Source: Beggiatoa alba B18LD
GTDB taxonomy: Bacteria; Pseudomonadota; Gammaproteobacteria; Beggiatoales; Beggiatoaceae
Reading direction: 5' to 3'
DNA: 64,000 nt
Assembly: GCF_000245015.1 (NCBI RefSeq)
Contig: NZ_JH600070.1
Location: 4,038,780-4,102,779 of the forward strand
In this document: positions 12,596-39,060 of the stretch, piece after piece
How positions within the stretch are numbered: position 1 is the first letter of the stretch
How the letters are laid out: each line of letters begins with the position of its first letter
Made by a program: the position numbers and the translations under genes
Notes under the pieces: model-generated
The model's input: the letters and a program-made list of their open reading frames with translations, nothing else
The model's database searches: none
What the model was told of the DNA's origin: nothing

Positions 12596-13083
12596 TATAG
12601 TAAACGTACCACAAAGTGATTTAAATTTAACGCGAGTACGGCGAGTTTCTTTTAAAAAGACAACAGCTTGAATGTTGTAGGGTGGAATAGCGAAGCGTAT
12701 TCCACCTTGAAATTCTGCAAAAACTGAGCAAAAAAAGATTATAAATCGTATGGTGGAATACGCTTTGCTATTCCACACCTGAGTTCGGCGAGTTTCTTAT
12801 AAAAAGACAACAATTTGTCTGAATCAGGATTTTCAGGATTAACAGGATTAGCAGGATTTAAAACCCTCAAACCAAAAAGTCAGGTGAATCACACTTTTTA
12901 ATTCTGCTAATTCTGAAAATTCTGTGAATTCTGATTCAGACAAAAAAAGACCTGCTAGGTTTTTAAAACCTAGCAGGTCTCTGTTTTATTTTATAAAACT
13001 CGCCGAACTCGGGTTAAATTTAGGACTGGCAGTCCTCACAGGATTGCCAGTCCTCGGTATCGTTTTATAGTACGGTTACTATA
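12596..13083. mobile_element. TATAGT-type element split by a 387-bp AACCTGAG-type composite element
   Basis: Outer element: left arm 12596-12628, right arm 13016-13083 ending in TTACTATA. Inner element 12629-13015 starts AACGCGAGTACGGCGAG and ends CTCGCCGAACTCGGGTT. The hexamer AAATTT is duplicated at the junctions (12623-12628 and 13016-13021). The inner element holds a GGTGGAATAGCGAAGCG inverted-repeat segment (about 12675-12775), a TTGTCTGAATC inverted repeat (12815-12943) and the CCTGCTAGG hairpin (12948-12980), whose minus-strand T-run would terminate rpiA. The outer right end overlaps the rpiA stop codon. Confidence 0.75.
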
Positions 13084-27231: not shown

Positions 27232-28686
27232 ATGTTATCGCTAAAAGATGCGCGTTTGTTTCGTCAACAAGCTTATATTAATGGTCAATGGTTAGATGCC
27301 GATAGTGGTAAAACAATAACAGTTACTAATCCCGCAACAGGTGCAGTATTAGGCACTGTGCCTGAAATGGGTGAAGCAGAAACACAACACGCAATTGTTG
27401 CTGCCCAGCAAGCATGGACAGCATGGCGAGATAAAACTGCGAAAGAACGTGGGCAAATTATGCGGGCTTGGTATCAGCTTATTATGGCGAATCAGGATGA
27501 CCTCGCCGTTTTAATGACGGCTGAACAGGGTAAACCCTTGAGCGAATCTAAAGGTGAAATCAGTTATGGCGCGTCTTTTATCGAATGGTTTGCCGAAGAA
27601 GCTAAACGTGTTTATGGCGATGTGATACCCGCTAGTAAACAAGGGCAACGGATTATTGTGTTAAAACAGCCGATTGGCATTGTCGCAGCAATTACACCGT
27701 GGAATTTTCCCAATGCCATGATTACCCGTAAATGTGCGCCCGCTTTAGCCGTTGGTTGCCCTGTGGTGATTAAGCCCGCCAGTCAAACGCCTTTTTCCGC
27801 CCTTGCGCTTGCTGAATTGGCTGACCGCGCGGGTTTTCCTGCGGGAATTATCAATGTCTTAACAGGGAATTCTCGAGCGATTGGCGGGGAAATGACGGCA
27901 AACCCCTTAGTACGTAAGTTATCATTTACAGGCTCAACCGAAACAGGCAAGTTATTGATGCAACAATGCGCGGGAACGGTGAAAAAAGTTTCTTTGGAAT
28001 TAGGCGGAAATGCGCCGTTTATCGTCTTTGATGATGCTGACCTTGATAAAGCGGTGAGTGGGGCAATTGCGTCTAAATATCGGAATGCAGGGCAAACTTG
28101 TGTTTGTGCGAATCGCTTGTTAATCCAATCAGGTATTTATGAGCAGTTTGCGGAAAAGTTAGCGGTTGCCGTGCAACAATTAACCGTCGGTGATGGTTTG
28201 AAAGGGGAAACTCAGCAAGGCCCTTTAATCGATATGCACGCCGTGGAAAAGGTCGAGGCACATATTGCGGATGCCGTGAGTAAAGGGGCGCGGGTGGTTT
28301 GTGGCGGTAAACGTCATGCGTTGGGCAATACGTTTTTTGAGCCGACCATTTTAGCGAATGTTACGCCTGCGATGCGGGTCGCCCGTGAGGAAACTTTTGG
28401 CCCTGTCGCGCCTTTATTCCGTTTTGAAACTGAAGCAGAAGCGATTCAGATGGCAAATGATACAGAGTTCGGGCTTGCTGCTTATTTTTATAGTCGAGAT
28501 TTAGGGCGAGTTTGGCGAGTGGCGGAAGCTTTGGAATATGGCATGGTGGGGATTAATGAAGGGATTATTTCTACCGAAGTCGCACCATTTGGCGGGGTGA
28601 AAGAGTCGGGCATTGGACGCGAAGGGTCGAAATATGGGGTTGATGATTTCTTAGAAATTAAGTATTTGTGTATGGGTGGAATTTGA
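27232..28686 (+). CDS. gabD: succinate-semialdehyde dehydrogenase (NADP+)
   Basis: Oxidises succinate semialdehyde to succinate. 484 residues, as in E. coli GabD (482). ALDH motifs: ITPWNFPNAMITRK, VIKPASQTPFSALAL, FTGSTETGKLL, LELGGNAPFIVF with the general-base glutamate, and NAGQTCVCANR with the nucleophilic cysteine. The C-terminal PFGGVKESGIGREGSKYG is typical of GabD. A ribosome-binding site AAGGAG precedes the ATG. An intrinsic terminator follows. The substrate might be a related semialdehyde. Confidence 0.92.
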   Translation: MLSLKDARLFRQQAYINGQWLDADSGKTITVTNPATGAVLGTVPEMGEAETQHAIVAAQQAWTAWRDKTAKERGQIMRAWYQLIMANQDDLAVLMTAEQGKPLSESKGEISYGASFIEWFAEEAKRVYGDVIPASKQGQRIIVLKQPIGIVAAITPWNFPNAMITRKCAPALAVGCPVVIKPASQTPFSALALAELADRAGFPAGIINVLTGNSRAIGGEMTANPLVRKLSFTGSTETGKLLMQQCAGTVKKVSLELGGNAPFIVFDDADLDKAVSGAIASKYRNAGQTCVCANRLLIQSGIYEQFAEKLAVAVQQLTVGDGLKGETQQGPLIDMHAVEKVEAHIADAVSKGARVVCGGKRHALGNTFFEPTILANVTPAMRVAREETFGPVAPLFRFETEAEAIQMANDTEFGLAAYFYSRDLGRVWRVAEALEYGMVGINEGIISTEVAPFGGVKESGIGREGSKYGVDDFLEIKYLCMGGI

Positions 28687-28765: not shown

Positions 28766-29017
28766 TTACCCACCCGCGACAGGCGGAAACATTACAACAA
28801 TATCGCCTTGATTTAATCGTGCGCTTGCCCGTTTATCGGGAGCGACATAAACCCCATTAATCAGGACTAAGTGGGCAGATTGTTCAGGAATATGATGTGT
28901 TGTAATTAAATCTTGTAACGATGTCCCTTCGGCTATATCCAGCTCCGTTTGATTGCGTTTCGCCCCTGTGGGTAAATATTGCGCAAGACTGGCGTATAAT
29001 TTTAGGGTAATTAACAT
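28766..29017 (-). CDS. MoaD/ThiS-like sulfur carrier of the aldehyde oxidoreductase operon
   Basis: 83 residues with the ubiquitin-like MoaD fold: LKLYASLAQYLPTG, VLINGVYVAPD, and the C-terminal double glycine (PPVAGG) that is thiocarboxylated. It starts one base after the stop of the FAD oxidoreductase gene, so it belongs to the aldehyde oxidoreductase operon. The expected role is dedicated sulfur delivery for the tungsto- or molybdopterin dithiolene, as for MoaD-like proteins in other tungsten oxidoreductase operons. Confidence 0.88.
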   Translation of the reverse strand: MLITLKLYASLAQYLPTGAKRNQTELDIAEGTSLQDLITTHHIPEQSAHLVLINGVYVAPDKRASARLNQGDIVVMFPPVAGG

Positions 29018-29018
29018 G

Positions 29019-30332
29019 TTACACCTCTAATAATGCGGCTCTACGGGTGTCTTCGGGTCGCCAGCCTGATGATTCAGGAATTTGGGTTCTGGCTAAATAG
29101 GCTTCCATTAAGCGGAACGGGTCGGCTTTTAAGCGTTCTTTCCAACTGCCTAATGGCACACGTCCATGAATTAAGCCACGGAGTACGCCAATGTGTTGCG
29201 TTACGCCTAAGCTGGTTGCACCAACTAAGAAGTCTTCTTTAAATTCTAGCTTGATATAGCGGTAGCGTTCAGGGTCGTAGAGTTCTACATTGTCGCCACC
29301 ATCAACGCCCATCCATAAACCAAATGAGGCAGAGATTAAGCCTAAAGTGTCTAAGACGTTCATGTTAAAACTACCGCGATAAAAATGTCGATGTCCTGTC
29401 ATGTTCAGGGCGGCAATGCGTCCATGTTCGGCGGCAGTGGGTTGAATGGCATGAACTTCAAAGTTCCATGTTGAAAAATCGCGCCCTTCGGCAACATCGC
29501 CCGCTGCAAAAATGCTGGGGATGTTGGTTTGTAGGTAGTGGTCAACCAGAATACCGTTGCCTTTATGGGTTTGAATGCCACTGCCTTGTAAAAATTGGGT
29601 ATTTGGACGTACACCCGCCGCAGAGATAACTAAGTCCGCTTCTAATACGCGCCCATCGCTTAAAGAAACAGCAAGCGGGTGTGGGCGTTTGTCGTCGCGT
29701 TCAATGGAGACAACTCGAGTAGAGGTACAAACTTGTACGCCTTTGGATTGACACCACGTTTTAATTAAGTTGCCCGCTTTGGGGGGCATCATCCGAGGTA
29801 CCATGCGGTCGCCCATTTCAACGACGGTTAAGTCAACGCCACGCATAGCAAGGGCTTCTAAGACGATACAGCCGACAAATCCCGCACCCAGTAGGACGAC
29901 TTTAGCACCATGTTGGGCAATTTTGATGATGTTACGCGCATCATTGAGCGTCCAACAGTTGTGCACACCTTTAGAATTGATACCTGCAACGGGTGGAAGC
30001 ACGGGGCTTGAGCCTGTCGCAATCAGTAAGGTATCAAAATGATGGGTTGTGGCATTGTCTAAGACGACAAAATTGTCATGCGTGTTAATGCGTTTAACCC
30101 GTTGTTGCATGAGGTTGATACGACGTTCTGCAAAGTGTTGGGGATTTTTTCGTAGATAAGTCCCTTCTTCCCCCACTTTTTTAATCAATAAGTAAGGAAT
30201 CGCCATGCGTGAATAAGGTGGCTCTGTTTCTTCACCGATGATTGTAATTTTGCTGTCTGGGTCTTCTTTACGGAGGGTTTCGGCAGCAATAACGCCCGCA
30301 GGGCCTGCGCCGATAATGACATGATGCACCAC
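29019..30332 (-). CDS. FAD/NAD-dependent oxidoreductase subunit (AorC-like)
   Basis: 437 residues of the pyridine nucleotide-disulfide oxidoreductase fold. FAD motif VIIGAGPAGVIAAETL at the N-terminus, NAD motif VVLLGAGFVGCIVLEAL near residue 147, and the second FAD motif IFAAGDVAEG near residue 282. No CxxxxC redox disulfide is seen. It starts with GTG at 30332 (AAGGA 8 nt upstream). In Aromatoleum-type aldehyde oxidoreductases such a subunit couples the tungsten enzyme to NAD(H); the gene order here supports the same role. Confidence 0.85.
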   Translation of the reverse strand: MVHHVIIGAGPAGVIAAETLRKEDPDSKITIIGEETEPPYSRMAIPYLLIKKVGEEGTYLRKNPQHFAERRINLMQQRVKRINTHDNFVVLDNATTHHFDTLLIATGSSPVLPPVAGINSKGVHNCWTLNDARNIIKIAQHGAKVVLLGAGFVGCIVLEALAMRGVDLTVVEMGDRMVPRMMPPKAGNLIKTWCQSKGVQVCTSTRVVSIERDDKRPHPLAVSLSDGRVLEADLVISAAGVRPNTQFLQGSGIQTHKGNGILVDHYLQTNIPSIFAAGDVAEGRDFSTWNFEVHAIQPTAAEHGRIAALNMTGHRHFYRGSFNMNVLDTLGLISASFGLWMGVDGGDNVELYDPERYRYIKLEFKEDFLVGATSLGVTQHIGVLRGLIHGRVPLGSWKERLKADPFRLMEAYLARTQIPESSGWRPEDTRRAALLEV

Positions 30333-30412
30333 GATAATATCCTTGTTAGAAGATGAGCCTGTTTAAGTGTGTCGCTGATGATTGCGCAATCTTAGTGCGT
30401 TGGCTCATTTCG

Positions 30413-30571
30413 TTAAAACAGTACGATGTAAATCGTAAACGCGAAGCCAACAACCGCGTACCATCCCATTAATTTGGGAAGTTCTTTCCCAAGGTAAAAA
30501 AGGTCGAATCCTTTTGTTGCCCACCAGCCGAAGGGGAGTAACAGTAATATTATAAAAATTAAAGTTATCAT
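30413..30571 (-). CDS. 52-residue membrane protein in the aldehyde oxidoreductase operon
   Basis: Short gene with a good GGGAG ribosome-binding site 8 nt before ATG 30571. The protein has two hydrophobic segments: MITLIFIILLLLPFGWW and, near the C-terminus, WYAVVGFAFTIYIVLF, separated by a short charged loop (KGFDLFYLGKELPK). It lies 80 bp upstream of the FAD oxidoreductase gene and downstream of the tungsten subunit gene, all on the minus strand. It resembles no family I recognise; a membrane anchor for the complex is one possibility. Confidence 0.7.
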   Translation of the reverse strand: MITLIFIILLLLPFGWWATKGFDLFYLGKELPKLMGWYAVVGFAFTIYIVLF

Positions 30572-30674
30572 GAGTTTAACTCCCGATTTGTTATGAGTGG
30601 GTGAGTGTAATGATGGGTGGTGTTACAGGCTAAAACGTTACTATTATTCTATTTTTGTCGGTATTTTACCCAAC

Positions 30675-30866
30675 TGCATATCGTCAAAGCCATTAAGTTA
30701 AGTGAGCATGATTATTGTAGGGTGGAATAGCGTAGCGTATTCCACCGTGAAGTTCTGTAAAAACTGAGCAAAAACAGATTATAAATCACATGGCGGAATA
30801 CGGCTTACGCCTATTCCACCCTACAAACCACAAACACGCTTATCTTAATGGCTTTGCTGCATATCG
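30675..30866. mobile_element. 174-bp palindromic MITE with 9-bp target duplication
   Basis: The nonamer TGCATATCG occurs at 30675-30683 and 30858-30866. Between them, 30684-30857, the ends are inverted repeats: TCAAAGCCATTAAGTTAAG and, on the other strand, GCAAAGCCATTAAGATAAG. Inside is a second inverted repeat, GGTGGAATAGCGTAGCG against GGTGGAATAGGCGTAAGCC, shared with 12675-12775. There is no coding capacity. It sits between the tungsten subunit gene and the 52-residue gene of the same operon. Confidence 0.8.
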
Positions 30867-30907
30867 TTGGAAAAAGCGACGACAGGCAGTCGAGCGAGTA
30901 TCAGCGA

Positions 30908-32758
30908 TTACAGTCCTAAACGTTGTTTAGTTTCTGTTGTGGGTATGCCATCAGCAGACCAGCCACGCAGTTGATAATATTCTGGTAGCATTTTAGCGAG
31001 ATCATTCACACGACCTTTAGCTGGACCTGTTTTTGCAGGTTCGGTCAATAAGCGTTTGGGCAAGGTGTCATCTTTTGCAGTAATGCCCGCTTTTAGATTG
31101 AACTCGCGTTCTAAGTTCCAAATCCGCTCGCCCATTAACAGCAGTTTTTCCATGCTCCAGTCACCTTCGCAGGCAGCATCGATTTGAGGTTGGATGTCGT
31201 TCAGTGACCATGCAAAGGTAGTAAAGACGCATAAACCTGAAGAGTCGACAACGGCAGTCGCATCTTGAAAGGCTTTCACTAATTCAGGTTTGCCCGCTGT
31301 CTCTAAGGGGTCTGTTTTGACGGGAATGCCTAAGACTTCGGAGGCAACGGTATAGCTCCGTAAATGGCAAGCACCACGGTTGCTGGTCGCGTAGGTTAAG
31401 CCCATGCCTTGAATACCGCGTGCGTCATAAGCAGGGAATTCTTGCCCTTTCACGGTCATGGATAAATCAGGATGTCCGTATTTTTCGCATAAGCGTTTAG
31501 AGCCTAAACCGATTTCTTTACCAAAACCTTCACCGCGTGCGGTGAGTTCGGCTAAGGTGGTGAGGGCTTGCGCAGAACCGAATTTAATTTCTAAACCGCC
31601 TGTGTGTTCTTTGGTCAACGCGCCAATGTCGTACAGTTCCATCGCTGCGGCGACAGTTGCCCCAAAGGAAATGGGGTCTATACCATCTTCATTGCATAAA
31701 AAGTTGGCATAAGTCAGTGCGTCTAAATCGTCCACACCCGTATCAGAGCCTAATGCCCAAGCGGCTTCGTATTCTAAACCGCCTGACGCGCCCCAATATT
31801 CAGGCTTGGTTTGAATGGTGTAGTGTTCTTTATCAATGGTGGAAATCCGACCGCAGGCAATGGTGCAACCAAAACAGGCGGCATTAGTCACGAGGTTAGG
31901 CTTGCTATCGCTTTTACGCGGTTCATACATGGCTTCGGCAGAAATTTTGCCCGCGCCTTCAAATTGAATTTCGCGCCAGTTGCGCGTTGGCATTGCGCCC
32001 ATTTCGTTGATGACGTTCATCAAGACTTGTGTGCCGTATTTGGGTAAGCCTGCCCCTGTCACGGCGTTGTCGCGTAAAACTTTTTTAGCGGCATTGGTGG
32101 CGGCAATAAAGCCTTTGGGGTCTTTTAAATTACCCACGCCTTTTGTGCCACGAATGGCAACGGCTTTTAAATTTTTGGAAGCCATGACTGTACCCACGCC
32201 AGAGCGTCCCGCTGCACGGTGTTTGTCGTTGACGATACCCGCAAATAAACAGCCATTTTCTGCGGAACGTCCAACGGTTGCGACACGAATCATGGGGTCT
32301 TGGTGTTTGTGGTGAATCCAGTCATCAGTTGCCCAAACGGATTTGCCCCAGATTTCGCTGGCATCTAATAATTGGGCTTTGTCATTTTCCAGATATAAAT
32401 AAACAGGTTTAGGGGCTTTACCTTCAAAAATCACCATGTCCCACCCTGCGTTTTTCATTTCCGCACCAATGAATCCGCCAGAGTTAGAACAGGCAACTGT
32501 ACCCGTTAAAGGACTTTTTGTGACGACGGAATAACGTCCGCCCGTAGCTGCCATCGTGCCCGTTAAAGGGCCTGTGGTCATAATTAACTTATTACCTGCG
32601 GATAAGGCATCAACTGTTGGGTCAATTTCTTCGACTAAATACTTGGTTGCTAAACCACGTTGTCCTAAATATTCTTGTGCCCAAACCATGTTTAATGGTT
32701 CAACGCTACAAGTTGAATGGGTTAAATTCACCCGCAAAACTTTTTTTGTCCACGCCAT
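30908..32758 (-). CDS. aldehyde:ferredoxin oxidoreductase, tungstopterin subunit (AorB-like)
   Basis: 616 residues, normal AOR family length. It carries a bis-pterin tungsten (or molybdenum) centre and one [4Fe-4S] cluster and interconverts aldehydes and carboxylic acids. Visible: LRVNLTHSTCSVEP and YLGQRGLATKYL at the N-terminus, GPLTGTMAATGGRYSVV, GRSGVGTVMASKNLKAVAI in the pterin-binding domain 1, the cluster motif CFGCTIAC near residue 297, and the fourth cysteine region SSGLCVF near 507. The upstream polyferredoxin gene is 27 bp away. The metal is inferred from family, not seen. Confidence 0.95.
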   Translation of the reverse strand: MAWTKKVLRVNLTHSTCSVEPLNMVWAQEYLGQRGLATKYLVEEIDPTVDALSAGNKLIMTTGPLTGTMAATGGRYSVVTKSPLTGTVACSNSGGFIGAEMKNAGWDMVIFEGKAPKPVYLYLENDKAQLLDASEIWGKSVWATDDWIHHKHQDPMIRVATVGRSAENGCLFAGIVNDKHRAAGRSGVGTVMASKNLKAVAIRGTKGVGNLKDPKGFIAATNAAKKVLRDNAVTGAGLPKYGTQVLMNVINEMGAMPTRNWREIQFEGAGKISAEAMYEPRKSDSKPNLVTNAACFGCTIACGRISTIDKEHYTIQTKPEYWGASGGLEYEAAWALGSDTGVDDLDALTYANFLCNEDGIDPISFGATVAAAMELYDIGALTKEHTGGLEIKFGSAQALTTLAELTARGEGFGKEIGLGSKRLCEKYGHPDLSMTVKGQEFPAYDARGIQGMGLTYATSNRGACHLRSYTVASEVLGIPVKTDPLETAGKPELVKAFQDATAVVDSSGLCVFTTFAWSLNDIQPQIDAACEGDWSMEKLLLMGERIWNLEREFNLKAGITAKDDTLPKRLLTEPAKTGPAKGRVNDLAKMLPEYYQLRGWSADGIPTTETKQRLGL

Positions 32759-32785
32759 AATAAATAACCTCCACTGGTGAATTGA

Positions 32786-33253
32786 TTAAGCAACTTGTAC
32801 GGATTTTGCTGCCCATGCACGCATTTTTTCTAACCCTGTCCAATTTGAATCGACGTAAGTAATGGCTTGGGTTGGACAGGCATTCGCGCAAGCAGGGTCG
32901 CCACCGCATAAATCGCATTTAATGACTTTACCAGTCTCTTGGTTATAGTTGACTGTGCCAAATGGACAGGCAATGGTGCAGACTTTACAGCCCACACAGA
33001 GAGAATTAGCAACTTCTTTTGCCCCTGTTAATTTATTTAGACCAATGGCTTCAACAGGACAGGCATGTAAACACCATGCTTCAGCGCATTGTGTACAGGT
33101 ATAAGGAACAAATTTGCCTTCGTGTTCAAAGTTAAAAACTTTAATCCGTGATTTGGAGGGATTAAAAACGCCTTCGTGTTCATATGAACAAGCCATTTCG
33201 CATTGTAAACAGCCCGTGCATTTTTGCGCGTCGATATAAAGGGACTTTTGCAT
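32786..33253 (-). CDS. polyferredoxin subunit of aldehyde oxidoreductase (AorA-like)
   Basis: 155 residues with four cysteine clusters in DmsB/HycB-like order: CTGCLQCEMAC, CTQCAEAWCLHACP, CVGCKVCTIACP and CDLCGGDPACANACP, enough for four [4Fe-4S] centres. It would form an electron relay between the tungsten subunit and the FAD subunit. In Aromatoleum the AorA-type subunit polymerises into wire-like filaments with AorB; whether this one does is unknown. First gene of the operon, start ATG 33253. Confidence 0.9.
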   Translation of the reverse strand: MQKSLYIDAQKCTGCLQCEMACSYEHEGVFNPSKSRIKVFNFEHEGKFVPYTCTQCAEAWCLHACPVEAIGLNKLTGAKEVANSLCVGCKVCTIACPFGTVNYNQETGKVIKCDLCGGDPACANACPTQAITYVDSNWTGLEKMRAWAAKSVQVA

Positions 33254-34274: not shown

Positions 34275-36764
34275 CTACTTCGGTATGCCTGTCATGGCAA
34301 AGCTACCGCCAAATACATAATCAAAATGTACAAAGTAGGGCACGATAGCAACATCAGATTCAATCCGTATCCCAAAAGCAGTGCCAATTTGGTCGGCGGG
34401 ACGACGGAATAAGCGATTATCATCGTGAGGAGCTAAACCGCCTTTTGCTTTGGGGGGAATGCTTAAGTTAATAATGGTCGGCTCTATCGGTAAATCGTAG
34501 TAGAACAAGAGTTTAACGTTAGCCGTTTGGTTGTTGGGATTGGCGAGCAATAAATATTCACGCACCCTGTTTGGGGTGTTATTAATAAAGCCTTCAGACA
34601 GTTCCCAAACCTTGTTAGGTTGTACGAAAGGCACGCCGTTTAAGCTGATTTCGTCAAAATCAGAGAAATTTGCGACGATGTTAGCGGGTGCGCCGTTAGC
34701 GGTATGAGCTTGATATCCAAGTGCATAATCTTGTTGCTTGCTAACATGGTCATTTAATAACACGCTACCTTTTTGTCCTGCGGGAATTGTGGTTGAAAAT
34801 TGTTTGTTAATACTGCCCATCATATTCCAGTCGATAGTCACTGCTTCTGTGTTTGGGTTGAAAATATCGACGATTTCAAAAGCATTTCCTGCAAGCCAGC
34901 CCTCAGCAACATAGCCTGTCGCGCTTCCGTTATTAGGTTGTAATAAGGTTAATGTGCCTTCGTGTAAGCTGTCGTCGTAATGGCTGAGAGCGACAACGAG
35001 TTGATTACCACTGGTGACGGTGATGCTAAACGGGGCATTTTTAAACGCGCTTGCAACAGGGGAACTATTAAGGATGTCTTGTAAAAAGACGGAGATACGA
35101 CCACCTGCAAAATAAGAGAGTTGTGCGACAGGCACATTGTAGTTAAAGGTATTACCTGTTAAACCATGAGTTAAGGTGACGGTAATATTAGTAACATTCG
35201 CGTCATCTGCTTTTTCGATGCAGAGGTAATCCCGTTCATAATTGACATTCATGCCTAATGCACTATGCCAGCGGTTGCTTGTGGTTGCGGTAAATTCGCT
35301 ACCTAAAGCAATGCCATTGTCATAATGGGTGAGTGAGGCGGTAATGGGTTGATACATAATTAAGCGCATTGCAAATGGGTCTGCATAACGTAATTCTTCG
35401 GTGAGAAACTCATTAATATAGAATTTTTTATAAGCAAATAAATCTATTGTACTTCGTTGTTTTGGCGGAAATTCAACGGGGATTTGGCTTTGCATACCAC
35501 TGTTTTCATAAATCAATTGTAGATAGCCATAGGCAGGAACATCATTGGTATTTAAAACCGTAATGAATTCAGTAACGCCATTACCTAAAAAACCTTCGGG
35601 CATGTATAAAACATGTCGGGGTTTTGTGCTTGCAAAAGAAATGGGGATGAGTTTATCTTTCTTAGTTGTTTGTTGAGCCCCCAGAAAATAGACATGTCCT
35701 TGATTATCAAGAAATGCGACACTGGTATCGATAACACTAAAACGACTACTGGGTCTGATACTGTGACTACCAATCCCCATAGTAATGATATAAGGAACGT
35801 TATTTACAAGATTAACAGGGGTATAGCTCGGTTCATTTCCCCAACCTGCTATCCCCCACGTTTTGATAATAGAGGCCCCTTTTGCATTAATTCTCACCAT
35901 TGAATAAGTACCACCAGCAGCGATATGTTCAATGGTTTCTACCCCATTTAAGGCAATGTTGATAGTTTGCGGACTTAAATGCGTTTGATCGTTACCGTTG
36001 TAATCCAGTCCCCAACTCCATAAACGATTGTCTTGCGTCAGTGCTAAACTGTGTTTTGCCCCTGCGGCAATTTGTACAACATTGGTTAATGGCAGTTGTA
36101 CAGGGCTTAAACGGTTGACGGTATCCCCTAAGCCTAATTGCCCTTGTCCGTTGCCTCCCCATGCCCATACTTTCCCTTGTGTATCTAGGGCTAAAGAGTG
36201 AGCATAAATGGTGTTAGCATACGTATATGTTGAGAGATTTAAACCAAACTCAGAACCACCACCCGCAGCAATTGCAATAATATTTGCAGGAATAGCCACT
36301 TGCGTTAGAGTATCGTGATAGTTTTCATCTTGCATCCCATTGCCCAATTGACCCAACGTGTTACTGCCCCAACTCCACACCGTTCCATCATTTTTTAAAA
36401 TCAATTGATGTGTTTCAGCAATAATGACGCTTTTAACGTTGGTAATGGGTAATTGAATAGGGTCTATAATCGTTTCAGGATAGCCATGTTGTGAGGCATT
36501 TGGAAAATATCGGGAATCACCCCATGCCCACAGCGTTCCATCAGCTTTAATCGCAAAATGGTGATACGCGCCCGTTGCGATACTCACGACATTCGCAGTC
36601 ATACGCGGATTATTCATAGAAATATCTCCCCCCCATGCCCAAACACTGCCATCTGCCCGTAAATAAAGCACATGGTCGGCTGAGGTCGCTACTTGAGGTT
36701 CAACGGCGTAAAGCGGGGGGGAAAGTAAGAAAAGACTTAAGAGAAGTGTTTTAAAAAATTGCAT
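34275..36764 (-). CDS. secreted RCC1-repeat protein with C-terminal beta-sandwich region
   Basis: 829 residues from ATG 36764 (AAGG 9 nt upstream; an ATG at 36797 lacks a site). The signal peptide ends near PPLYA. Residues about 25-370 hold RCC1-type propeller repeats, each with a DGSVWAWG or SLALDTQGKVWAWGGNGQGQLGLGD pattern (first, fourth and others clear). The remaining 450 residues contain repeated segments starting near VLYMPEGFLGNG and VAEGWLAGNAFEIVDIFNPN, then KVWELSEGFINN, which look like three related beta-sandwich units of about 130-150 residues. Probably extracellular or surface; partner unknown. No operon partner is evident. Confidence 0.8.
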   Translation of the reverse strand: MQFFKTLLLSLFLLSPPLYAVEPQVATSADHVLYLRADGSVWAWGGDISMNNPRMTANVVSIATGAYHHFAIKADGTLWAWGDSRYFPNASQHGYPETIIDPIQLPITNVKSVIIAETHQLILKNDGTVWSWGSNTLGQLGNGMQDENYHDTLTQVAIPANIIAIAAGGGSEFGLNLSTYTYANTIYAHSLALDTQGKVWAWGGNGQGQLGLGDTVNRLSPVQLPLTNVVQIAAGAKHSLALTQDNRLWSWGLDYNGNDQTHLSPQTINIALNGVETIEHIAAGGTYSMVRINAKGASIIKTWGIAGWGNEPSYTPVNLVNNVPYIITMGIGSHSIRPSSRFSVIDTSVAFLDNQGHVYFLGAQQTTKKDKLIPISFASTKPRHVLYMPEGFLGNGVTEFITVLNTNDVPAYGYLQLIYENSGMQSQIPVEFPPKQRSTIDLFAYKKFYINEFLTEELRYADPFAMRLIMYQPITASLTHYDNGIALGSEFTATTSNRWHSALGMNVNYERDYLCIEKADDANVTNITVTLTHGLTGNTFNYNVPVAQLSYFAGGRISVFLQDILNSSPVASAFKNAPFSITVTSGNQLVVALSHYDDSLHEGTLTLLQPNNGSATGYVAEGWLAGNAFEIVDIFNPNTEAVTIDWNMMGSINKQFSTTIPAGQKGSVLLNDHVSKQQDYALGYQAHTANGAPANIVANFSDFDEISLNGVPFVQPNKVWELSEGFINNTPNRVREYLLLANPNNQTANVKLLFYYDLPIEPTIINLSIPPKAKGGLAPHDDNRLFRRPADQIGTAFGIRIESDVAIVPYFVHFDYVFGGSFAMTGIPK

Positions 36765-36894
36765 AAAAGTAACCTTTATGAATGATGTTTTACGCAATTT
36801 TATGAGTTCACTTACAATTTTTTAATCGGGTTATAACCTTATGAGCGATGGTTCAAAGAAGATAGGCTTGATTAGAGACACTCACGAATTCCGA

Positions 36895-37761
36895 TTATTC
36901 ATAATGTTTATCCAGTATTTTCACCGTATCCATACTAGGAATTGCATCAAAAATAATATTCTTAGTCCCTGTATAAACAAGAAAATGTTTCCCTTTTGCC
37001 CGCGCTATCATGGTCACGCCAATTTGTTCGGCTAATTCAATGCCCATTTGTGTGACCCCTGAACGCGATAACAAAATAGCAATGCCCATATTCGCGGCTT
37101 TCATCACAATTTCAGAAGTTAAACGCCCTGTGGTGTAAAAAACTTTGTTTTCTCCCGTCCATTGGTTTAACCACATTTGCCCCGCAATCGTATCCGCTGC
37201 ATTATGCCGTCCCACATCTTCTACAAAGTATAAAATCTCTGTGCCTTCACACAAGGCGCAACCATGCACCGCACCTGCTTGGCGGTAGATTTCATTATAT
37301 TGATTCAACGCATTGAGCAAGGCGTAAATATAAGATTGTTTAATTTGTACCTCAGGCAAACGCACATGATAAATTTTATCAACACTGCAACTAAAGACCG
37401 TGCCTTGCCCACAACCTGTCGTTATTGTGCGCTTACTTATTTTTCTATCCCATTCAGTAATTCCCTTGAAGGTGACAACATCGACACGCTCCCTATCCCA
37501 ATTGACGCAAACCGATTTTATTTCCGTTAAATATTCTATAAACCGTTGATTGCGTAAGTAACCAATGGTTAAGGCTTCAGGATAAATCCCCAAAGTCATC
37601 AAAGTGACAACTTCCTTATTATCAATAAATAATGTCAACGGGGATTCTCCCGCAATGTGTACCTCATTGGTTAACCCATATTCATCTAAGGCAAGCACGG
37701 AAAACGTGGGCTTTAATCCTGCTTGACTCATCATGGGTTGATAGAAATTATCTTGCGTCAT
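36895..37761 (-). CDS. fdhD: sulfurtransferase FdhD
   Basis: 288 residues. FdhD transfers sulfur from IscS to the bis-pterin cofactor of formate dehydrogenase. Seen: PLTLFIDNKEVVTLMTLG, RTITTGCGQGTVFS, HGCALCEGTEILYFVEDVGRHNAADTIAG and FYTTGRLTSEIVMKAANMG. The cysteine loop reads GCGQG with a single cysteine rather than CxxC, a variant found in other FdhD proteins. No formate dehydrogenase is in the window; the aldehyde oxidoreductase 3.6 kb away also uses a bis-pterin cofactor. It follows moaA by 47 bp. Confidence 0.93.
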   Translation of the reverse strand: MTQDNFYQPMMSQAGLKPTFSVLALDEYGLTNEVHIAGESPLTLFIDNKEVVTLMTLGIYPEALTIGYLRNQRFIEYLTEIKSVCVNWDRERVDVVTFKGITEWDRKISKRTITTGCGQGTVFSCSVDKIYHVRLPEVQIKQSYIYALLNALNQYNEIYRQAGAVHGCALCEGTEILYFVEDVGRHNAADTIAGQMWLNQWTGENKVFYTTGRLTSEIVMKAANMGIAILLSRSGVTQMGIELAEQIGVTMIARAKGKHFLVYTGTKNIIFDAIPSMDTVKILDKHYE

Positions 37762-37808
37762 TGGCTCTCCCTAAAAATAACGCTATTTCATTGTATTAGC
37801 AGGAAAGG

Positions 37809-38804
37809 CTACCCGCCTGTCATATTCATGTAGCGTAAAATAATTGGCTGACGAGTTAAATCGAAATCATGTCCTTTGGGTTTGATTTCCATAGATTTCA
37901 CAATGGCTTGTTTTAAAACTTCCATATTATTGGGATTCGCACGCACCACTCGACGTAAATCAATAGAATGTTCTTGCCCTAAACAGAGTAATAAACGCCC
38001 TTCTGTCGTGAGGCGCACGCGATTACAGGATTCACAAAAATTATGGCTGTGCGGAGAGATAAAACCAACACGAGTATCCGTATTCGGAATTCGATAATAC
38101 TTTGCAGGGCCGCCTGTGGTTTCAGTCGTTGGAATGAAAGGAAAAACTTGCTCGATATCTTGGCGAATTTGGTCGCTGGAATAGTAGGCTTCAGCGCGAT
38201 TATGTTCCCCAATCACCCCTAATGGCATTTCTTCAATAAAACTGATGTCTATGCCTTTATCAATGGCAAAATTAACAAGGTCGATAATTTCGTCTTCATT
38301 ACGATTTTTTAAAATCACGGTATTCAACTTAATCCGCTCAAAGCCAACTTGTAAAGCGGCATCAATGCCTTTTAAGACCGTTGATAATTGTCCGACTCGT
38401 GTAATTTGTGTAAATCGGTTCGCCCGTAAACTATCTAAACTGATGTTAATTCGCTTAACACCCGAATCGCGCAATGGTTGCGCTAATTTTTGCAATTGAG
38501 AGCCATTTGTAGTTAAAACCAACTCTTTTAAGCCATCTAACTGACCCAATTTATCAAACAATTGCATAATATTATTTCGCACCAACGGTTCTCCCCCCGT
38601 GATACGAATTTTAGAAACGCCCAACTCGACAAAAGCCTGTCCAATCAGCGCAATTTCTTCCAAGGTCAATAACTGCGCCCGTGGTAAAAAATTCATTTTT
38701 TCATCCATGCAATAGACACAGCGAAAATCACAGCGGTCAGTTACAGATATACGTAAATAAGTTACTTTACGGTTAAATTTATCAATGAGTTGTGTTGTCG
38801 ACAT
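37809..38804 (-). CDS. moaA: GTP 3',8-cyclase
   Basis: Radical-SAM enzyme that begins molybdopterin synthesis by converting GTP to 3',8-cyclo-GTP. 331 residues from ATG 38804 (GGGAG upstream); the longer open frame to 38933 adds an unrelated hydrophobic segment. The radical-SAM motif is DRCDFRCVYCM, the second cluster motif is CESCNRVRLT...LLLCLG, and the C-terminus ends in the double glycine (MNMTGG) needed for activity. It is upstream of fdhD on the same strand. Confidence 0.96.
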   Translation of the reverse strand: MSTTQLIDKFNRKVTYLRISVTDRCDFRCVYCMDEKMNFLPRAQLLTLEEIALIGQAFVELGVSKIRITGGEPLVRNNIMQLFDKLGQLDGLKELVLTTNGSQLQKLAQPLRDSGVKRINISLDSLRANRFTQITRVGQLSTVLKGIDAALQVGFERIKLNTVILKNRNEDEIIDLVNFAIDKGIDISFIEEMPLGVIGEHNRAEAYYSSDQIRQDIEQVFPFIPTTETTGGPAKYYRIPNTDTRVGFISPHSHNFCESCNRVRLTTEGRLLLCLGQEHSIDLRRVVRANPNNMEVLKQAIVKSMEIKPKGHDFDLTRQPIILRYMNMTGG

Positions 38805-39060
38805 TATAAAAACAGCTCCCACAAATGATGAAGTATCCACTTTGGTGTTTATTCTTGAGTATTTTAGTAAACTAAATTGTAGCGGTTTTCCCCGCACAAA
38901 AACGGCAAGAAACATACCGCACAATATCAGCAAAGCAGGATATTGTTATAAATCACACCATTTTCAAACAATAAAGAGAAATACTAGGGAGCAGGTCAAT
39001 TATGGGCAACAAAAGTGATGCAACACTTTGAATCAAATATGTCACAATGCGGAAGATAAT

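Follow-up and report, generated by a model that had tools for sequence, protein, structure and literature searches.

The window, a 64-kb stretch of DNA (C2:4038780-4102779) in a genome of 4,265,146 bases and 3 contigs, carries a locus whose sequence marks its product as a tungsten aldehyde oxidoreductase of the bacterial type with three subunits (AorABC, or Class III WOR under the 2026 nomenclature), an ordinary member of an already known enzyme type. The original prediction had assigned it to the type described from Aromatoleum, and the sequence, operon order, residues and tree all bear this out. The locus resembles AorABC of Aromatoleum aromaticum EbN1 (8C0Z; PMC6365974, PMC10413684) in its three subunits, in the gene order A-B-C followed by a MoaD-like gene, in the residues for the tungsten cofactor, the clusters, the FAD and the aromatic pocket, and in the C-terminal tail of AorA. 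It differs in having a single MoaD-like gene instead of the aorD-aorE pair of Aromatoleum, in the 575-bp gap between aorB and aorC, and in its host, which is related to Beggiatoa, whereas Aromatoleum is a denitrifying betaproteobacterium. The loose ends are modest: the single MoaD-like gene, the interrupted operon and the role of the enzyme in a sulfur oxidiser.

The aor genes and their products

Four consecutive genes lie on the minus strand: aorA (32786..33253; polyferredoxin subunit, 155 aa), aorB (30908..32758; catalytic subunit, 616 aa, with predicted W-bis-MPT and [4Fe-4S] sites), aorC (29019..30332; FAD subunit, 437 aa, GTG start, with a probable coupling to NAD+) and the aorD-like gene (28766..29017; MoaD/ThiS-fold sulfur carrier by its Pfam match, 83 aa, C-terminal GG). 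All four frames are open, and the intergenic distances are 27 bp (aorA-aorB), 575 bp (aorB-aorC) and 1 bp (aorC-aorD). Together with a 52-aa membrane ORF (30413..30571, minus strand) inside the aorB-aorC gap, they are the five minus-strand reading frames originally claimed (polyferredoxin, AOR, small membrane protein, FAD/NAD oxidoreductase and MoaD), and the positions of all five are confirmed.

AorB has the domains AFOR_N (1.4e-75) and AFOR_C (1.9e-142), which are common to the whole AOR family; the AFOR_C match is the only one in the genome. The best match among PDB sequences (phmmer) is 8C0Z, over the full length at 1041.5 bits, and AorB is identical to its chain A at 450 of 615 positions (73.2%). 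Scores then fall through 9mqx (695.7 bits), Pyrococcus furiosus AOR (1AOR; 584.6, homologous along its length), 9g7j (559.4) and Haloferax WOR83 (374.5) to FOR (248), WOR5 (164.7) and the far more distant BamB of benzoyl-CoA reductase (4Z3W; 158.9), an AOR-family homologue whose reaction and partners differ from those of AOR. P. furiosus AOR is a homodimer without AorA or AorC, and the three-subunit enzyme of Moorella thermoacetica has the same operon structure as that of Aromatoleum, with subunit identities of 40/54/34% (PMC6365974).

Homologue frames were recovered in full from 84 loci for 83 AorB, 80 AorA, 71 AorC and 81 MoaD proteins, the remaining frames being cut by contig ends or lost at start-codon assignment; the 84 loci contain some repeats (L006 and L038 have the same AorB). 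In 8C0Z numbering, the window and 83/83 homologues share, without exception, R75, N92, G94, R181, A182, E331, D361 and D504, cysteines 295, 298, 302 and 509, and Y468, F511 and F514. PMC10413684 assigns R75, N92, G94, R181, A182, D361 and D504 to the cofactor, the four cysteines to the cluster, and Y468, F511 and F514 to the pocket of the Aromatoleum enzyme. The window has Leu at I508 and Val at V510. The catalytic histidine is given as His484 (PMC10413684); position 484 of the 8C0Z chain is indeed His but is not conserved, being Leu in the window and in 74/83 homologues. H464 is invariant in 83/83, P. furiosus AOR has a His at the aligned position, and on our own reading of the alignment H464 (H465 in the window) is probably the catalytic residue meant.

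AorA has 16 cysteines, matches several 4Fe-4S domain models and would be expected to hold four [4Fe-4S] clusters. Its best PDB match is 8C0Z chain C (276.7 bits, residues 1-151; 77.5% identity, 117/151). The C-terminal tail WTGLEKMRAWAAK aligns with 8C0Z WTGLARMQAWAAK, free of gaps up to residue 151 of 155. In the Aromatoleum enzyme this tail is described as unique to the subclade and required for filaments (PMC10413684); its presence here fits filament formation, without proving it.

AorC matches Pyr_redox_2 (2e-58) and, as its best PDB match, 8C0Z chain E (475.4 bits by phmmer); at 55.0% identity (229/416) it is the most diverged of the three subunits. The window retains R41, M42 and R179; of the 71 extracted homologues, 70 have the first of these and all 71 have each of the other two. 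We note that PMC10413684 writes Glu294 where the 8C0Z chain has Gln.

The MoaD-like protein is one of three ThiS-family matches in the genome (Pfam ThiS, 3.8e-10) and lies below the cut-offs of all four matching NCBIfam MoaD/ThiS/SAMP1 models. The second MoaD-like gene (aorE) is absent from the window operon, in which the one MoaD-like gene is followed by a convergent gabD; the Aromatoleum operon has both aorD and aorE (PMC6365974). Recombinant Aromatoleum AorABC had 4.5 U/mg and a tungsten content of 1.06 without aorDE, 16 U/mg and 0.39 with aorDE, and 85 U/mg when aorDE was combined with a supplement of tungstate (PMC9295118). A 103-aa gene that occurs near aor in relatives (30 loci by clustering; 15/80 loci above 50 bits by tblastn) was considered as a candidate aorE and set aside, as it is not in the window operon. 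The only match to it in the genome is 33% identical and lies elsewhere (L131, C2 near 405951-406214), next to ORFs that we take to resemble pqqC and pqqD. Two relatives have a second AorC-like stretch (45-47%) after MoaD (L063, 11063-12328; L069, 8570-9817).

Distribution, descent and tungstate supply

Of 344 relatives, the best 80 loci were compared, and the counts do not bear on more distant AORs. AorB and AorC are found in 80/80 loci and AorA and MoaD in 78/80 each, the MoaD figure counting loci with a match and leaving second copies uncounted. The two loci missing AorA both start at contig ends; MoaD is missing from L018, which ends soon after aorC, and from L035, a long locus with no match. 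The order and strand of the aor genes found agree in 80/80 loci. The closest named AorB among these best 80 relatives is that of Beggiatoa sp. SZUA-411 (82%), although records from the genome itself may be left out. Across an even sample of the class, AorB matches at E<=1e-150 occur in 36/274 genomes, our own included. Among 57 relatives, 6 have a match at E<=0.001 (3/36 within the same family), and a congener (G001) has none at that threshold. A second AorB-like gene, 54-62% identical to that of the window, occurs in seven genomes of the class sample (G094, G125, G127, G223, G247, G291 and G298).

A phylogeny of the AOR subunit had been proposed as a check of the assignment, and it places the window among proteobacterial AorB proteins and apart from archaeal AOR. 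The tree has 89 rows (the window, 83 loci and five PDB chains; FOR, WOR5 and BamB were left out) and was built by a quick method; it is rooted at the midpoint, its outgroup branches are long, and the window is in no starred set of at most half of the rows. The window belongs to a group of 50 rows, mostly from Gammaproteobacteria (support 98). Within this group it shares a four-row fork, supported at 89 and internally unresolved, with SZUA-411, Plasticicumulans and a member of the same family (G019). The AorB of Aromatoleum sits close to those of Thauera and Azoarcus in another group, which has 33 rows (support 89); a separate fork (support 92) unites P. furiosus AOR, 9g7j and 9mqx, and Haloferax has a very long branch. 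The tree would fit either of two histories: gammaproteobacterial descent with much loss, or exchange among Gammaproteobacteria.

The original prediction had named the absence of tungstate-uptake genes as evidence against itself; a likely tupABC is present in this genome as a cluster of three genes (C2:212960-215361). The binding protein matches TupA (1.2e-72; 244.5 bits against a cut-off of 400), its only NCBIfam match at 1e-10; the permease matches TupB (8e-52; 176.3 bits against a cut-off of 320) and is over the cut-off of ABC_perm1; the match of the ATPase is unspecific. Tungstate uptake is therefore likely. In 12 relatives the aor locus itself encodes a protein that shares 45-62% identity with the TupA-like protein, and 17/80 aor loci have a TupA match above 50 bits. 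With the TupA-like protein as query, 8/57 relatives match at 1e-30, including all six AOR genomes, that is 6/6 genomes with AOR against 2/51 without (G037 and G046). The Fisher p value is 7.7e-7, or 5.5e-6 when the window's own genome is omitted, and 1.4e-4 within the family (3/3 against 0/33), all three uncorrected for kinship. From this co-occurrence, tungsten use in these bacteria looks like a coherent trait, though an optional one. Also present in the genome are a cluster for molybdate transport, in which ModA and ModB each exceed one cut-off, two MoeA genes and five molybdopterin oxidoreductase matches, which suggests that the cell handles molybdenum as well. Since the molybdate transporter cluster is present too, molybdenum in the enzyme is conceivable by sequence.

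Proposed function and competing readings

We consider the following scheme, taken as a whole, very likely. AorB would oxidise aldehydes to acids at a W-bis-metallopterin, and the electrons would travel from its [4Fe-4S] cluster by way of the four AorA clusters to the FAD in AorC and then to NAD+. The AorA subunits probably stack as filaments via the C-terminal helix, with AorC nucleating them. The MoaD-like protein probably donates the dithiolene sulfur for the pterin, and TupABC, encoded elsewhere in the genome, would supply tungstate. The most likely role would be the removal of aldehydes with the electrons recovered as NADH. The basis in this genome is homology, gene order, residues and the co-occurrence of TupA; the metal, activity, electron path, filaments and role are carried over from the Aromatoleum enzyme.

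Aldehyde detoxification and acid reduction had both been put forward originally. Acid reduction is a genuine in-vitro activity of the Aromatoleum enzyme, but the oxidation of aldehydes with formation of NADH is the likelier role, and we judge it very unlikely that the physiological direction is the reduction of acids to aldehydes or alcohols. The Aromatoleum enzyme does reduce acids with Eu(II), Ti(III) or H2, and at pH 5.6 with H2 its rate with benzoate (74 mU/mg) equals or exceeds that of NAD+ reduction (16-72); at pH 7.0, however, benzoate gives 10 mU/mg against 1.3-1.7 thousand for NAD+ (PMC9295118). Moreover, there is no alcohol dehydrogenase among the four operon genes. It seems scarcely credible that the locus descends from another branch of the family (archaeal single-subunit AOR, FOR, WOR5 or BamB) that gained a polyferredoxin and a flavoprotein. 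AFOR domains are indeed family-wide, and AorA scores 105.6 bits against the small subunit of WOR5, but the AorB score drops from 1041.5 bits for 8C0Z to 695.7 for the next match, 9mqx, and on down to 158.9 for BamB, and the tree (which omits FOR, WOR5 and BamB) places the window among proteobacterial AorB. The grouping with BamB or another family that had been named as telling against an AorABC assignment is thus not seen.

The 575-bp aorB-aorC gap could uncouple aorC from aorAB. In the 80 relatives this gap reaches 450 bp at most, with a median of 35 bp, and the gap in the window holds a repeat and a probably unrelated ORF, so that one may ask whether an insertion broke the operon, with AorC poorly made, the complex mostly AorAB or the locus decaying. 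We regard this as unlikely: all four frames are open, the 450-bp maximum belongs to Beggiatoa sp. SZUA-411 (L010), which keeps all four genes, and the terminator scan gave 6 sites against 6.2 in shuffled sequence, with none on the minus strand within the gap. The promoter scan found 5 against 8.4 in shuffles. A speculative variant, which we hold to be improbable, is that in some Beggiatoaceae the aorB-aorC insertion lowers AorC relative to AorAB, so that a mobile repeat would tune filament length; fewer, longer nanowires would result because AorC nucleates the filament in Aromatoleum. We prefer the complete NAD+-coupled AorABC enzyme described above.

In the open-licence literature we found no description of the operon in Beggiatoa or in sulfur-oxidizing Gammaproteobacteria. 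PMC7356093, on B. leptomitoformis genomes, does not mention aldehyde, ethanol, molybdenum, tungsten or formate, and Beggiatoa goes unmentioned in the available portions of PMC6365974, PMC10413684 and PMC13328260. According to PMC13328260, the Aromatoleum enzyme is the only Class III WOR that has been characterised. A useful second test case would be a sulfur bacterium in which the operon is complete, the MoaD-like gene is single and a tupABC is likely, all the more so if this genome belongs to a cultured Beggiatoa.

Sequences within the gap and beside the operon

The repeat in the gap (30704..30825) is matched by at least 26 other places in the genome, a minimum based on scoring 40 of the 56 candidates; the matches have 85-90% identity along 107-119 bases. 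Inverted arms of 46 nt (30685-30730 and 30811-30856), 80% complementary to each other, enclose the repeat. It belongs to a short palindromic repeat family of about 120 bp, with another copy at 12665-12776 of the window. The gap of SZUA-411 contains, by eye, a different palindromic sequence.

In the gene order first proposed, the small membrane protein stood between AOR and the FAD/NAD oxidoreductase. The aor genes do match the Aromatoleum type, but the small membrane protein is no known part of it. The 52-aa ORF has no NCBIfam match, no match above 35 bits in loci L003-L089 and none at E<=1 in the five other AOR genomes among the 57 relatives, although so short a query is a weak probe and distant relatives can be missed. 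A copy with 69% identity occurs in G001, the congener that lacks AOR, and the ORFs on either side of that copy match none of the window's proteins. As the ORF is missing from the other AOR genomes and has a copy elsewhere in an AOR-less congener, it is probably a chance neighbour of the aor genes, lying outside the system, and a conserved extra subunit is unlikely.

On the plus strand, gabD (27232-28686) is convergent with the operon at a distance of 79 bp; it scores 847.1 against a cut-off of 828 for the NCBIfam NADP-dependent succinate-semialdehyde dehydrogenase. It had been described as convergent and without obvious link to aor, and this holds: matches above 50 bits (32-42% identity) occur in only 4/80 loci, and a link to aor is unsupported. 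Upstream of the operon and on its strand, fdhD and moaA are adjacent (36895-38933). FdhD is below both NCBIfam cut-offs (128.7 against 140.9; 136.5 against 269). Matches above 50 bits occur at 1/80 aor loci for fdhD and 7/80 for moaA, which are lower bounds as many loci are short; being rarely found at the aor loci of relatives, the two genes are unsupported as parts of the system. Also upstream and on the aor strand, positions 34275-36797 encode an 840-aa protein with RCC1-type repeats.
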